This document shows, piece by piece, positions 53,073 to 60,679 of a stretch of 64,000 nt of DNA. The translations under genes were made by a program, and so were the position numbers. Location: NCBI RefSeq assembly GCF_000682675.1, contig NZ_AWFA01000056.1:1-64000 (forward strand), in the 5' to 3' direction. Below the pieces are notes generated by a model that was not told where the DNA came from, searched no databases, and saw only the letters and a list, made by a program, of their open reading frames with translations. The stretch comes from Hyphomonas pacifica. Its GTDB lineage: Bacteria > Pseudomonadota > Alphaproteobacteria > Caulobacterales > Hyphomonadaceae. Numbering within the stretch: position 1 is the stretch's first letter; the number at the start of each line of letters is the position of its first letter.

Positions 53073-55868
53073 TTATTCACCCGCGCCGTCTTCTGCACCA
53101 TCCATAGCTGTTTCAGCGTCTTCCACAAGACGCGCGACCGAAACGACGCGCTCTCCTTCGGCGGTCCGGAGCACCCAGACACCGCCTGTCGAGCGACCAG
53201 CAATGCGGATCTGCTCCACCGGCGTGCGGATCAGCTGTCCCGCATCCGTGACCAGCATGACCTGATCGCCATCGCCAACCGTGAAGGATTGAGCCACTTT
53301 CTTGACCGGCCCCTTCTTCTTGTCGCGGCCCCAGATATTTTGGGCCACAAGGCCTTTACCGCCCCGTCCGGTGACGCGGTAATCGTAAGCGGACGAGCGT
53401 TTACCCATGCCGTCATCGGCAATCGTCAGGATGAATTCCTCGGCGGCGCCAAGCTGGGCGATACGCTCGGCGCTCAGCGCGGCCTCTTCGATGCCCTCTT
53501 CGCCCTCATCGTCAGACACCTCCTCCTCTTCGCCGGTTGCGGCTCGGCGCATGGCGGAGGCATGCTTGAGATAGGCACGCGCCTCTTCGGAGGTGACTTC
53601 GATATGGCGCAAAATGCCCATGGAGATGACTTCATCATCATCCCCGAGACGTATACCCCGCACACCGGTCGAGTTCCGACCTGCAAACACGCGCACATCC
53701 GTCACCGCAAAACGAATACACTGGCCGAGCGCCGTCGTGAGCAGGATGTCGTCATTTTCGGTGCAGATCTTCACCGAAACGATGCCGTCGCCATCATCCA
53801 GCTTCATCGCAATCTTGCCGTTGCGGTTCACGCGGATGAAGTCTGACAGCTTGTTGCGGCGCACGGTGCCCGTCTTGGTGGCGAACATGACGTCCAGTTC
53901 ATTGCGGGACTCGTCATCCTCGGGCAGCGGCATGACGCTCTCAATGCGCTCATCCGCAGCCAGCGGGAAAATGTTGACCAGCGCCTTGCCGCGCGAGTTC
54001 GGCCCGCCCATCGGCAGACGCCAGACCTTCTCCTTGTAGACCATGCCGGCGGAGGAGAAGAACAGCACTTCAGTGTGCGTCGTGGCAGAGAACACGTTCA
54101 CGACGAAGTCCTCGTCCTTCATGCTCATGCCAGAGCGGCCTTTGCCGCCGCGATGCTGAGTCCGATAGGTCGAGAGCGGTGTGCGCTTGACGTAGCCGCC
54201 ATGCGTAACGGTCACGATCATGTCTTCGACCTCGATGAGGTCTTCGTCTTCCATGTCGACACCGCCAAACGCGAATTCAGAGCGGCGCGGTACGGCGAAT
54301 TTGTCTTTCACCTCATTCAGCTCGGCGCGGATGATGTCCAGAACGCGCGGACGAGACCGCAGGATATCCAGATAATCGGCAATCTTTTCAGACAGGCCCT
54401 TGGCCTCATTGCCGATCTCGTCACGGCCAAGGCCGGTGAGGCGGGACAGTTGCAGTGCTAGGATGGCACGGGCCTGCTCATCGGACAGATAGATCGTGTC
54501 GCCTTCGCCCTTGCGGGTCCGGCGGTCGGCGATCAGGTCCAGCAGCGGTCCCATATCCATTATCGGCCAGGCCTTTTCAAGCAGGGCTTCACGGGCGGAA
54601 TTTGGGTCCGGAGAGTAGCGGATGATGCGGATCACTTCGTCAATGTTCGCCACGGCCATGGCGAGACCGACCAAGACGTGCGCCCGGTCGCGCGCCTTGT
54701 TCAGCTCGTGCTTGGTCCGGCGAACAACGACTTCCTGGCGGAATGCAATGAAACATTCCAGCACCTTGCGGAGGTTCATCAGCTCTGGGCGCCCGCCATT
54801 CAGGGCCAGCATGTTCACGCCAAAGCTCGTCTGCATCTGACTGAAACGGTAAAGCTGGTTCAGCACGACTTCGGCGCTGGCATCCTTTTTCAGCTCGACC
54901 ACGACACGGATACCATTCCGGTCAGACTCGTCGCGCAGATCAGCAATGCCTTCGATCCGCTTCTCGCGCACGAGTTCGGCGATCTTGGTGATCATGGCGG
55001 CCTTGTTCACCTGATATGGAATCTCGGTGACAATGATGGCCTGGCGGCCATTCTTGGCCTCTTCAATATCGGTTTTGGAACGCATGATGACGCTGCCACG
55101 GCCTGTCATCAGTGCTTTGCGACTGCCGGACATGCCCATGATCAGGCCGCCTGTCGGGAAGTCCGGTCCCGGCACGATCTCCAGCAGCGCATCATCATCC
55201 AGGGTCGGATCGTCAATCAGGGCCAGCGTCGCATCCACGACCTCGCCCAGATTGTGAGGCGGAATGTTCGTCGCCATGCCGACCGCAATACCGCCTGCCC
55301 CATTGACGAGCAGATTGGGGAACTGCGCCGGCAGGACAATCGGCTCCAGCTTGGAGTCGTCATAGTTTTTCTGGAAGTCGACCGTATCCTTCTCGATGTC
55401 TGCAAGAAGGTAGGTCGCCTCACGGGTCATCCGGCTTTCAGTATAACGCATGGCGGCCGGCGGATCATTGTCAATCGAACCGAAATTACCCTGACCATCA
55501 ACCAGCGGCACGCCCATGGAGAAAGGCTGCGCCATCCGGACAAGGGCGTCATAAATCGCGGAGTCACCGTGCGGGTGATAATTACCCATCACGGCGCCTA
55601 CGATATTTGCCGATTTCTTGTAGGGCTTACCCGGCGTATTGCCGCCTTCATTCATGGCATACAGAATGCGGCGGTGAACGGGCTTGAGTCCGTCACGTAC
55701 ATCCGGCAGGGCCCGGCTGACGATCACGCTCATCGCATAATCGAGATAGGAACTTTTTAGTTCGGATTCGATGGAAATCGGCTCAATGCCGTCCGGCAGG
55801 ATCGCGCCACCTTCGCCACCATTTTCGGGGGTTTCCGGGTCGTCCGGCGTGGTCGTGTCGTCGCTCAT
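53073..55868 (-). CDS. gyrA: DNA gyrase subunit A
   Basis: Type II topoisomerase subunit of 931 residues. The breakage-reunion domain is complete, with the active-site Tyr in AAMRYTE. In the quinolone-resistance region, [12 protein letters not shown] keeps the Ser and Asp of sensitive enzymes. The GyrA box of the C-terminal pinwheel reads QHRGGKG instead of QRRGGKG. An acidic insertion ([18 protein letters not shown], near residue 780) lies in the C-terminal domain. Confidence 0.97.
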
Positions 55869-56022: not shown

Positions 56023-56847
56023 CTATTCCAGCGCGCCCACAGCGACAAGCCCCTCATGCACCACAATCTTGCGCTTTTCGAGCGCGGGATTGTCCACATC
56101 CATGTCCATATTCATAGCGAAGGCATAGGTGCCGGGTGCAGGTCCGCCGGTCTGTTCCAGCCAACCTACATACCAACCAATATCGGTCTCTCCCTCAACA
56201 CGCTTCCACCCTGTTTTGGCATAGAGCGTCCAGCCTTCGCCCTGATCCGCCAGCATGATGGGAATGGCCTGCTCATAAGTGCGTGCGGACAGCGGCAATG
56301 TATGCGCCGCCAGCCGGGCCAGAAACGCCACCTGCTCGCGCGCAGATATCGCCAACGGCCCCTTCAGCCAGTAAGTCTGAATATCAGACTCGCCGCCCAC
56401 ATCGGCATTTCCATAATCAAACCGCATGAGCCAGTCATGCAGGACGGCACTACCAATGCGCGGTGTTACAGTCTGATAGATCCACACCGTGGAGCGCTGG
56501 AACGCTTTGGCAAAGCTCTGACTCTCATTCCAGCCTGGCGAGAATCGCGTCTCGCCATCCCACTCAAACCACTCATCCGGGCCCGTTACAGCCCCGGTCT
56601 CAAGCGCGATCAGCGTGTGCGGTATTTTTGAGGTGGAAGCTGCGACGAACCGGTTTTCGGGCCGGTCGCCGCTCGTCTCCCATGTGCCGCCATCTTCAAG
56701 ACGGTAGATGACGAGGGCAGCCGCCTCAGGCGTCAGCCCTTGCGCCACCAACACCTCATCCAGCGTCTGCGGGCGCTCCGGCACAGCCTGACAGGCGCAG
56801 AGCAACGCCGTCAGTCCAAGAGCAAGGCCGAACAGATGCCGAATCAC
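56023..56847 (-). CDS. Class D (OXA-type) beta-lactamase, lipoprotein
   Basis: Serine beta-lactamase of 274 residues with an N-terminal lipobox (LLCAC, Cys19). The active-site motif is S71-T-S-K74, where Ser replaces the usual Phe of STFK. S119-T-V is the SxV motif, FDYGN (143-147) the YGN motif, YWLKGPLAIS the omega-like Trp region, and Y-A-K-T-G (209-213) the KTG triad with WYVGW after it. All catalytic residues are present. It lies between gyrA and ssb, which are usually adjacent, so it looks like an insertion. No mobile-element remnant is visible. Confidence 0.93.
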   Translation of the reverse strand: MIRHLFGLALGLTALLCACQAVPERPQTLDEVLVAQGLTPEAAALVIYRLEDGGTWETSGDRPENRFVAASTSKIPHTLIALETGAVTGPDEWFEWDGETRFSPGWNESQSFAKAFQRSTVWIYQTVTPRIGSAVLHDWLMRFDYGNADVGGESDIQTYWLKGPLAISAREQVAFLARLAAHTLPLSARTYEQAIPIMLADQGEGWTLYAKTGWKRVEGETDIGWYVGWLEQTGGPAPGTYAFAMNMDMDVDNPALEKRKIVVHEGLVAVGALE

Positions 56848-56856
56848 GAGCCGCTC

Positions 56857-57342
56857 CTAGAATGGAATCTCGTCATCTAGATCCTGGCTGAAGCTCTCCT
56901 GCGGGCCGCTCATCTGACGCGGACCGCTATTGCCGCCACCGCCTTGATAGCCGCCGAAATCATTACCGGCAGACCGGCCACCGCCTTCACCACGGGCATC
57001 CAGCATGGTCAGCGTAGAATTGAAGCCACGAAGCACAACTTCGGTCGTGTAGCGATCCTGGCCATCCTTGTCCTGCCATTTGCGGGTTTCAAGCTGGCCT
57101 TCGATGTAGAGCTTTGAGCCTTTTTTCACATAGTTCTGGACGACCCGTACAAGGCCCTCACTGAACACGGAAATGCGGTGCCATTCGGTGCGCTCCTTGC
57201 GCTCACCGGTGTTCTTGTCTTTCCAGGTTTCCGAGGTGGCGAGCGTAAAGCTGGCCACCTGGCCGCCATTCTGGAACTGGCGGACTTCCGGATCCTGGCC
57301 GACATTGCCGACAAGAATAACCTTGTTCACTGATCCCGCCAT
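56857..57342 (-). CDS. ssb: Single-stranded DNA-binding protein Ssb
   Basis: Tetrameric OB-fold protein of 161 residues for replication, recombination and repair. It begins [21 protein letters not shown], has [10 protein letters not shown] in the core, a Gly-rich linker with [11 protein letters not shown], and ends DLDDEIPF, the acidic tip that recruits partner proteins. It is divergent from uvrA and shares an SOS box with it, a long-conserved arrangement. Confidence 0.97.
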
Positions 57343-57472: not shown

Positions 57473-57487
57473 GTTCACAATTTGTTC
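57473..57487. promoter_or_regulatory. LexA (SOS) box, alphaproteobacterial type
   Basis: GTTC-ACAATTT-GTTC is an exact GTTC-N7-GTTC, the LexA site of alphaproteobacteria. It lies between ssb and uvrA, 131 and 100 bp from their starts, so LexA would control both. Both are SOS genes in many species. Confidence 0.88.
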
Positions 57488-57586: not shown

Positions 57587-60500
57587 ATGGCCGAGTCCCC
57601 CTATATACGCGTGCGCGGCGCCAAGGAACACAATCTCAAAAATGTCGACGTGGATATCCCGCGCGGCGAGTTGGTTGTGATGACAGGCCTGTCAGGCTCC
57701 GGCAAGTCCTCGCTCGCCTTCGACACGATCTATGCCGAGGGCCAGCGCCGCTATGTCGAATCCCTGTCGGCATATGCGCGCCAGTTCCTGGAGCTGATGC
57801 AAAAGCCTGACGTCGAGAGCATCGAAGGCCTGTCGCCCGCCATCTCGATCGAGCAAAAGACGACCAGCCGCAATCCACGCTCAACCGTCGGCACTGTGAC
57901 GGAAATTTACGACTATATGCGCTTGCTCTGGGCACGTGTCGGTGTGCCGTATTCTCCGGCCACGGGCCTGCCCATTGAAAGCCAAACCGTCAGCCAGATG
58001 GTCGACCGCACAATGGACCTGCCGGAAGGCACGCGCCTCTATCTGCTCGCGCCCATAGTGCGCGGCCGGAAGGGGGAATACCGCAAGGAATTCGCCGAAC
58101 TTCTGAAAAATGGCTATCAGCGCGTTAAAGTGGACGGGGAGTTCCACGAACTCGAAACCCCGCCAAAGCTCGACAAAAAGTTCAAGCACGACATTGATGT
58201 GGTCGTGGACCGGATTGTTGTGCGCGAAGGTATGGAACAGCGCCTTGCGGAGAGTTTCGAAACCGCCATCGGCCTCGCAGACGGTATCGCGATTGGCGAA
58301 TATGCCGATGTGGAAGAGGGTGAGACCGAGCCAAAACGCATCACCTACAGCGCCAATTTCGCCTGCCCGGTCTCCGGCTTCACTATTCCGGAAATCGAGC
58401 CGCGCCTGTTCTCGTTCAACAACCCCTTTGGCGCCTGCCCGACCTGTGACGGCCTCGGCGAGCAGCTTAAAGTAGATGCAGGCCTCGTTGTGCCGGATAA
58501 GGATCTCGACCTGCTGAATGGCGCAATCGCGCCCTGGGCCAAATCTACCTCGCCCTATCAGACCCAGACACTGCAGGCCCTGTCGGCGCATTACCGCTTT
58601 GACCTCAAGAAACCCTGGAACCAGCTGCCAGAGGAAATCCATAATATCATCCTGTTCGGCACTGGGGAGGATGAGGTGAAGTTCGTCTATGATGACGGTA
58701 TGCGCCGCTATGAAGTGAAGAAGACGTTTGAAGGCGTCATTCCGAACCTGGAGCGCCGCTACCGCGAGACTGACAGCCAGTGGGTGCGTGACGAGATCGC
58801 CAAATTCCAGGCCGCCGCGCCATGCCCTGCCTGTGGTGGCAAGCGCTTGAAGCCAGAAGCCCTCGCGGTGAAGATCGACACGCTCGACATTTCAGATGCC
58901 GGCGCGTTCTCCATCAAGCAGGCCCATGAATGGTTCGCCCAAGTCTACAAATCGTTGACCAAGCAGCAGAACGAAATCGCCAGCCGCATCCTGAAAGAGA
59001 TCAATGACCGTCTCGATTTCCTGAATGATGTCGGCCTGGAATATCTGACGCTCAGCCGCGCGTCCGGCACGCTGTCGGGTGGGGAAAGCCAGCGCATTCG
59101 CCTGGCCAGTCAAATCGGCTCCGGCCTTACGGGCGTACTCTATGTGCTGGACGAACCGAGCATCGGCCTGCACCAACGCGACAATGATCGCTTGCTGGAA
59201 ACGTTGAAGCGCCTCCGCGATCTCGGCAACTCGGTCATCGTTGTGGAGCATGACGAGGACGCGATCCTGACGGCCGACCATGTTATCGATATGGGCCCGG
59301 CCGCTGGCGTGCATGGCGGTGAGATCATTGCCGAAGGCACACCGGAAGAGGTGATGGCCAATCCGAAAAGCCTGACGGCAGACTATCTGAACGGCACAAA
59401 GGAAATCCCGATTCCGAAACGCCGCCCGGTAGAGAAAGCCAAGCGCAAGATCACCCTGAAAGGCGCAACCGGCAACAATCTGAAGAATGTGACCGCGACG
59501 ATCCCGCTCGGCAGCTTCACCTGCATTACGGGCGTGTCCGGCGGCGGTAAATCCACACTGATCATAGAGACCCTCTACAAAGCGCTCGCCCGCAAGCTGA
59601 ACGGGGCTTCCGCCCCCCCGCAGCCCTATGAAAGCATTGAGGGCCTTCAGCATCTCGACAAGGTGATCGACATAGACCAGAGCCCGATTGGCCGGACACC
59701 CCGGTCCAACCCGGCAACTTATACCGGCGCATTCGGCCCGATCCGTGACTGGTTCGCCGGACTTCCGGAAGCCAAGGCACGCGGGTATGCGCCGGGACGC
59801 TTCAGCTTCAATGTGAAGGGCGGTCGGTGCGAGGCTTGTCAGGGCGACGGCGTCATCAAGATCGAGATGCACTTCCTGCCAGATGTCTATGTCACGTGCG
59901 AGACCTGCAAGGGCAAACGCTACAATCGCGAGACCTTGGAAGTCCTGTTCAAGGGCAAATCCATCGCAGATGTGCTGGACATGACGGTTGAGGATGCGGC
60001 GAAATTCTTCTCCGCCGTACCAGCCATCGCAACAAAGCTCGACACGCTGAACGAGGTCGGTCTCGGCTATGTGAAAGTTGGGCAGCAGGCGACGACGCTG
60101 TCCGGCGGTGAGGCGCAGCGCGTGAAACTCGCCAAGGAATTGTCGAAACGCGCCACCGGCAAGACGCTTTACATTCTGGATGAGCCGACCACCGGCCTGC
60201 ACTTTGAAGACGTGCGCAAGCTACTCGAAGTGCTGCACTCGCTGGTCGACACCGGCAATACAGTGGTGGTGATCGAGCACAATCTGGATGTCGTGAAGAC
60301 AGCCGACTGGGTGCTGGATCTAGGGCCCGAGGGCGGCGATGGTGGCGGCCAGCTGGTTGCGGCCGGAACGCCGGAAGACATTGCCGCCTGCGAGGAAAGC
60401 TGGACCGGCAAGCATCTGGCCGAAACCTTCCGCCGTCAGGATGAACGCCGCGCGGCCCGCAACAAACGGGTGAGAGCCGCGGAGTCTGCCAAGACCAAAT

Positions 60501-60679
60501 CGAAGCCCAAACCTGAGACCAAACCGGTCCCAAAACCCAAAGCCACCCCGAAGTCCAAGCCGAAAGCCAAGGCTGAGACCAAAACAGCTACTTCCACCAG
60601 GAAACCAGCCAAAAGCGCAGCAAAGAAAGCTCCAGCCAAGCCTAAAGCGAAAGCGCGCAGCAAGAGCTCCGCCAAATAG
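57587..60679 (+). CDS. uvrA: Excinuclease ABC subunit A (UvrA) with Lys-rich tail
   Basis: Damage-recognition ATPase of nucleotide excision repair, 1030 residues. Two ABC cassettes are seen: Walker [10 protein letters not shown] at 34-42 and GVSGGGKST near 647, with the signature LSGGESQRI and LSGGEAQRV. Zinc-finger cysteines are in CPTCDG and CPACGGK of the first half and [15 protein letters not shown] of the second. About 65 residues beyond the usual C-terminus (from about 965) form a Lys/Pro/Ala-rich tail, likely disordered and DNA-binding. Confidence 0.97.

Follow-up and report, generated by a model that had tools for sequence, protein, structure and literature searches.

A class D beta-lactamase gene of the OXA-1090 family lies directly behind ssb in Hyphomonas and may be under SOS control

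Results

The ssb-bla locus of Hyphomonas pacifica

The window—the whole stretch of 64,000 nucleotides of Hyphomonas pacifica DNA that was analyzed—contains an open reading frame of 274 codons on the minus strand, here called bla, which spans exactly 56023-56847. It is flanked on the same strand by gyrA and ssb, as originally predicted, and the divergent uvrA gene lies beyond ssb. The features of the locus are:

53073-55868, minus strand: gyrA, downstream of bla (open reading frame and domain search)
56023-56847, minus strand: bla, which starts with GTG and encodes a 274-aa OXA-1090 family class D beta-lactamase (open reading frame call and profile searches)
56626-56637, minus strand: codons of S71-T-S-K74, the STSK first active-site motif (sequence and alignments)
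56791-56802, minus strand: lipobox-like L-C-A-C19, with predicted lipid attachment at C19 (sequence)
56848-56856, minus strand: gap of 9 bases from the ssb stop to the bla start (letters read; TAGGAG at the ssb stop)
56857-57342, minus strand: ssb, which encodes a single-strand DNA-binding protein of 161 aa and opens the proposed operon
57473-57487, plus strand: putative LexA (SOS) box GTTC-N7-GTTC, GTTCACAATTTGTTC, at 130 bases from the start of ssb and 99 bases from that of uvrA, upstream of both
57587-60679, plus strand: uvrA, divergent from ssb (UvrA_DNA-bind and UvrA_inter domains)

The TAGGAG at the ssb stop is likely the ribosome-binding site of bla. The gene is on the same strand as ssb and separated from it by a short gap with no terminator between them, as would be typical of a member of an ssb operon; a terminator scan of 32 of the 36 Hyphomonas loci that carry bla gave four matches (L004, L006, L027, and L030), all of them in early bla codons and none in the gap.

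bla belongs to the known OXA-1090 family

The sole Pfam match in the bla product is to Transpeptidase (E 2.3e-26), and 136 solved sequences match it at E <= 0.001, the best among the matches listed being class D enzymes such as OXA-2 (4e-40). Against the NCBIfam model NF040784.1, 'OXA-1090 family carbapenem-hydrolyzing class D beta-lactamase', it scores 474.8 bits and passes the curated cut-off of 400. Alignments place the class D motifs at S71-T-S-K74, S119-T-V, Y145-G-N, W160, and K211-T-G, and the S-x-x-K, S-x-V, and K-T/S-G motifs and the omega-loop W are thus all present; the usual, non-defining F at the third place of S-T-F-K is replaced by S. Judged by these matches, bla is a class D beta-lactamase gene and adds a member to the OXA-1090 family, which was already described. 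Its product is probably lipid-anchored. The original prediction had proposed an OXA-type enzyme with all class D motifs, an STSK motif at residues 71-74, and probable lipoprotein character; the family search and the alignments bear out the first two, the residue numbers and coordinates of STSK are correct, and the lipobox-like L-C-A-C19 agrees with the predicted lipid anchor.

It had also allowed for close homologs that are sensors of the BlaR type. BlaR1-type sensors are longer than 550 aa, carry an N-terminal peptidase domain, and in most cases have a polar residue at the third place of the second motif (PMC9045261); we rejected such a role because the bla product is 274 aa long, has V rather than a polar residue at that place (S-T-V), and gives the Transpeptidase match alone.

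The chromosome-encoded OXAVL06/OXA-1090 (Lupo et al. 2022, PMC9045261) has been purified, and its kcat/Km values are 2 for ampicillin, 0.56 for oxacillin, and 2.5 for imipenem (per micromolar per second); meropenem is not hydrolyzed. Without bicarbonate, OXAVL06 shows a burst and then a slowdown, and bicarbonate improves hydrolysis (PMC9045261), which counts against a loss of lysine carboxylation in the OXA-1090 family, by way of family membership and not of the OXAVL06 sequence. The suggestion that STSK goes with altered carboxylation of the active-site lysine is weakened to that extent, and the window's own copy of bla is presumably active. Class D homologs with complete motifs that lack real activity are known (YbxI and the BAC-1 cluster; PMC9045261), and these, together with a third SxxK residue other than F, would fit a nonhydrolytic penicillin-recognizing protein with a sensor or cell-wall role. 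We consider such a protein highly improbable, however, given that bla shares its NCBI family with an enzyme whose turnover of imipenem and oxacillin has been measured and that the catalytic motifs are kept in 36/36 Hyphomonas copies. Five pairwise comparisons of bla gave dN/dS values of 0.14, 0.07, 0.14, 0.12, and 0.12 (the last three with dS > 1 and therefore rough), and values of 0.07-0.14 point to purifying selection on the gene.

bla appears to be ancestral in Hyphomonas

The original prediction had bla acquired at this site, and set against this the case in which relatives always have ssb and gyrA on either side of the gene; that case is largely what the genus presents. We find bla in 36 of 42 Hyphomonas genomes, and in all 36 it lies directly behind ssb, on the same strand and 1-18 bases 3' of the ssb stop (measured to the first in-frame start). 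The gyrA start follows bla within 400 bp in 25/36 and at 1.1-3.0 kb in nine, and there is none in the analyzed stretch in two. Copies include one of 90% identity in Hyphomonas beringensis 25B14_1 and one of 58% in Hyphomonas jannaschiana VP2, and the tight ssb-bla gap is kept while bla identity falls to 54%. The bla protein distances track those of ssb (Mantel r 0.65 over 31 loci) and those of the N-terminal part of uvrA (Mantel r 0.67 over 25 loci), with 0 of 2000 permutations as high for either. Because the 36 copies are all in place and their divergence tracks ssb and uvrA, bla is not a recent arrival; we take it to be genus-ancestral and intrinsic, and it may have entered at the root of the genus or of the family.

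Six Hyphomonas genomes (completeness 74-99%) are without bla. Three of these (L115, L118, and L119) have 143 or 173 bp between ssb and gyrA, and two gave no close ssb. Elsewhere in the Hyphomonadaceae, bla occurs in only 2 of 63 genomes, behind ssb in both. Recent horizontal transfer of an environmental OXA into the ssb-gyrA interval could account for this patchiness, but the shared place and the tracking divergence of the 36 copies allow no more than an entry at the root of the genus or of the family followed by losses, and we regard a recent acquisition as exceedingly improbable. For the window's strain, a recent insertion at the ssb-gyrA site is rejected, the place being common to 36 species.

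The remaining bla-less Hyphomonas (G031 contig C54, L116) has an ssb-gyrA gap of 508 bp, longer than the 143-173 bp of the three others, and tblastn (E 1e-5) gave no bla match in it. The ssb-gyrA gap accepts other genes too, as seen in a bla-less genome of another family, in which a GFA-domain protein is encoded between ssb and gyrA (L131:5515-5922).

In a plasmid search, 4735 of 72,556 records match bla, the best listed being OXA-198, OXA-2, and OXA-58 types and unnamed blaOXA genes; none of the 4735 has at least 60% identity. Plasmid spread of bla's own family was therefore not seen at 60% identity or above.

STSK is a trait of the clade

The first motif of the 36 genus copies is STSK in 33 (including L282, read by eye), STAK in two, and STTK in one; the second motif S-T/A-V-W and the third motif K-T/S-G-W are present in 36/36. 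Related genes outside the genus encode STSK (a few STAK) proteins and, in a second family of the order that we label f4, also STFK (one STYK) proteins. A permissive lipobox pattern fits 35/36 genus copies and just 2 of the 18 f4 proteins encoded at ssb-linked loci. On these alignments STSK is a clade trait, and its presence in 33/36 genus copies led us to reject the idea that it is a defect of the window's copy. We also dropped the idea that Y before the omega-loop W compensates for STSK because OXA-2 combines YW with STFK.

A putative LexA box upstream of ssb

The SOS box of Caulobacter is GTTCN7GTTC (PMC9578287), and the window has two matches to this pattern where 1.31 are expected, so a single match is by itself weak. 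Within 200 bp upstream of ssb, GAACN7GAAC, sought in this single orientation, is exact in 33 of the 36 genus loci and has one mismatch in the other three; such a conserved upstream box is consistent with membership of ssb in a LexA regulon. The same orientation of the pattern occurs in 0/36 loci upstream of bla and 0/30 upstream of gyrA, and the opposite orientation in 2/36 upstream of bla; a box with its spacing changed by one occurs in 0/36. Two reversed-letter controls upstream of ssb gave 0/36 and 7/36 matches; the seven are all CTTGN7CTTG, a sign that chance matches are shared among related loci. A stricter pattern, in which ATGGC follows the box core at 80-140 bases, occurs once each in 29 of the 42 genus genomes and its control in none, and in at least one such genome (G004) the ATGGC is not the ssb start.

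The box is slightly nearer to uvrA (99 bp) than to ssb (130 bp) in the window and thus may act mainly on uvrA, and in four genus loci with 262-bp intergenic regions (L012, L017, L020, and L021) it holds its distance to uvrA (96-97 bp) and not its spacing to ssb. Moreover, SOS induction of Escherichia coli ssb is moderate only (PMC3323433). It is therefore possible, if on the unlikely side, that bla is constitutive, read from a housekeeping ssb promoter or from one inside ssb, with the LexA box serving uvrA and barely affecting bla. Other loci speak against this: in six with 403- to 410-bp intergenic regions (L024, L029, L030, and L039-L041) the box holds its distance to ssb (127-130 bp), and in L103 and L106 of family f4, where uvrA has been displaced to about 1 kb from ssb, each gene has its own box, that of ssb being 34 bp upstream. 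Some genomes are counted twice in the list of box distances (e.g., L043 and L130). The persistence of the box at ssb in Vibrio has been read as selection for SOS control of ssb (PMC3323433). No sigma-70-type promoter was recognized, and we count this against the reading that we prefer, in which LexA controls ssb and bla as an operon.

The LexA regulon in the genome and genus

A LexA DNA-binding domain is encoded in 40 of the 42 genus genomes, and none was found in G010 and G030, both of which carry bla. Across the window's own genome (G000), the bare LexA pattern shows no excess, with 85 sites and 85 for the reversed control; the SOS argument therefore rests on conservation and on sites with AT-rich spacers. 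We read all 85 sites, and 21 of them, including the ssb/uvrA box, have at least five A/T in the 7-base spacer. Ten proteins at ten of these AT-rich-spacer sites were scanned. Five, whose genes the box precedes, are of repair type: LexA, a RecN-like SMC protein, RmuC, a Y-family polymerase, and a DNA photolyase. The remaining five are an aminotransferase, a sigma factor, a T2SSE ATPase, a DNA methylase, and one without a match. A second Y-family polymerase is encoded behind a site with four A/T (L171).

Three individual sites in G000 are described here in their own right. A LexA-type box immediately precedes a DNA photolyase gene on contig C1 (L144:1501-1517), another lies 159 bp upstream of the gene for an RpoH-looking sigma-70-family factor on contig C30 (L190:1501-1674), and two opposed LexA-type patterns lie just before a gene on contig C45 whose product is a C-5 cytosine DNA methylase that also has a helix-turn-helix domain (L203:1501-1567).

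BlaI-type proteins in Hyphomonas

BlaI-family (Penicillinase_R) proteins are found in 40 of the 42 genus genomes, and one of the two in G000 adjoins an M56 (BlaR1-type peptidase) protein, so bla might be governed from another part of the genome by a BlaI-type repressor with its M56 partner, its place behind ssb being an accident of gene order. We think this very improbable: no BlaI or sensor gene is beside bla in the window, the operator would need to lie inside or before ssb, and the M56 protein ends in an M23 domain, with no penicillin-binding domain found by Pfam. The pair itself (L302:726-2542, G000 contig C1, 181500-186500) consists of a BlaI-like repressor of 130 aa and a 475-aa M56 + M23 protein, and is possibly a cell-wall stress pair.

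Class D genes and ssb outside Hyphomonas

Across the class, 305 of 385 genomes match a general class D model, mostly weakly and in long frames, and among the 30 best loci (with flanks of ~1.5 kb) ssb is adjacent in two Hyphomonas and in 0/28 others. Of the 137 genomes of family f4, 30 have a match to NF040784. There, 18 genes (STFK or STYK) follow a boxed ssb on the same strand at distances of 51 bp to 3.3 kb; these stretches include uvrA in 17 and gyrA in 14, and the box is 33-57 bp before ssb in 17/18 loci and 218 bp in one. For seven f4 STSK genes and five distant ones, ssb is not adjacent (stretches of 2.1-13 kb), and the f5 loci G231 and G306 (STSK or STAK), as well as G060, are without ssb linkage. 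Among the 25 non-genus matches, G088 and G286 were left out and G121 was viewed with 1.5-kb flanks. Unlike Hyphomonas, L101, L105, and L108 in f4 have strong terminator-like hairpins between ssb and bla, and some f4 loci have an extra open reading frame there; the tight ssb-bla operon would thus be a Hyphomonas feature, and co-transcription of ssb and bla in f4 is not supported.

In trees of 69 and 44 rows, the Hyphomonadaceae genes that are linked to ssb fall within a group of unlinked STSK genes (support 96/85 and 81/89, respectively), and the ssb-linked f4 genes form a separate clade (99/97 and 99/94), outside which L112 falls in the 69-row tree. A single clade of all ssb-linked genes is disfavored (AU p 0.018, 44 thinned rows), and a single clade of the unlinked STSK genes is not rejected (AU p 0.217, same rows), although the test is weakened by the groups having been named after the first tree had been viewed. 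Both two arrivals at the ssb locus and one old place with one escape stand on these values. L117 (at a contig end) was left out of all trees; the 69-row tree is without L113, L114, L133, L134, and most class-wide rows, the 44-row tree is without L036, L112, and L253, and another tree was built without L225, L226, and L248.

Discussion

We favor, with somewhat more confidence than doubt, the reading that the intrinsic OXA-1090 family bla gene of Hyphomonas is the second cistron of a LexA-boxed ssb operon and is raised together with ssb by DNA damage. In such an operon, bla would be translated from the ribosome-binding site at the ssb stop codon and have a basal level set by the ssb message, and the LexA box upstream of ssb leads us to expect that DNA damage, through LexA cleavage and relief of repression, would raise ssb and bla together above that level. 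The bla product would be exported, probably lipid-anchored, and would hydrolyze penicillins, and probably also imipenem, through an acyl-enzyme mechanism that uses a carboxylated lysine. In E. coli, beta-lactams trigger SOS through DpiBA (PMC9578287), a route that would let SOS act as an indirect beta-lactam signal; in Hyphomonas, beta-lactam attack and the DNA damage ensuing from it could likewise make SOS such a signal. Co-transcription, LexA binding, the size of the induction, and the benefit to the cell are expectations that we draw from gene order and the conserved box. We speculate further, and this must be seen as doubtful, both that Hyphomonas runs its OXA as an SOS gene, with LexA as an antibiotic sensor by proxy, and that class D genes were recruited twice, in the order, to a LexA-boxed ssb locus—as an STSK, lipoprotein-like form in Hyphomonadaceae and as an STFK form in a second family.

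If the SOS reading is true, a beta-lactamase of a carbapenemase family would be induced by DNA damage and not by its substrate, environmental bacteria would gain cross-protection between DNA-damaging and cell-wall antibiotics, and the locus would be a simple model for studying why SOS is triggered by beta-lactams. The analysis also corrects two views, that bla is a newcomer and that STSK is odd: the enzyme, its motif, and its place are as the original prediction had them, a recent acquisition is not supported, and the LexA box and proposed operon were absent from that prediction. The enzyme family was already known, and we found no earlier description of a conserved SOS-type operon context for bla in the literature searched. 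That search covered titles and the beginnings of abstracts of the papers listed, with most subscription journals outside its scope, and gave no beta-lactamase gene in a LexA-controlled operon, the nearest report being on integron integrases (PMC3375312); a word search of the main text of the OXA-1090 paper (PMC9045261) gave no 'gyrA'.

Among known systems, OXA-1090 (OXAVL06) is like bla in being a chromosomal class D enzyme, and bla matches its family model NF040784 over the full length and above the cut-off. OXA-2, OXA-58, and OXA-198 share the fold family and motifs with bla at 36.6-39.2% identity (in the 12 best plasmid records listed), but are on plasmids, and the first motif of OXA-2 and OXA-58 is STFK where bla has STSK. 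The quinolone resistance gene qnrB is SOS-controlled, under LexA, and often plasmid-borne; it resembles bla as a resistance gene with a link to LexA—proposed in the case of bla—and differs in drug class. The SOS-induced integron integrase rearranges beta-lactamase cassettes (PMC3375312) and, as we propose for Hyphomonas, ties SOS to beta-lactamase expression; that route is indirect, however, through cassette recombination in mobile integrons, whereas the Hyphomonas bla would itself sit in a LexA-controlled operon. The closest counterpart in gene order is the divergent uvrA-ssb pair of E. coli and Vibrio, which likewise has a LexA site between the genes and in which sites are kept by each gene when the pair is split (PMC3323433), as in L103 and L106 here. 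Hyphomonas differs from it in that a beta-lactamase gene comes next after ssb and in that the box is the alphaproteobacterial direct repeat.
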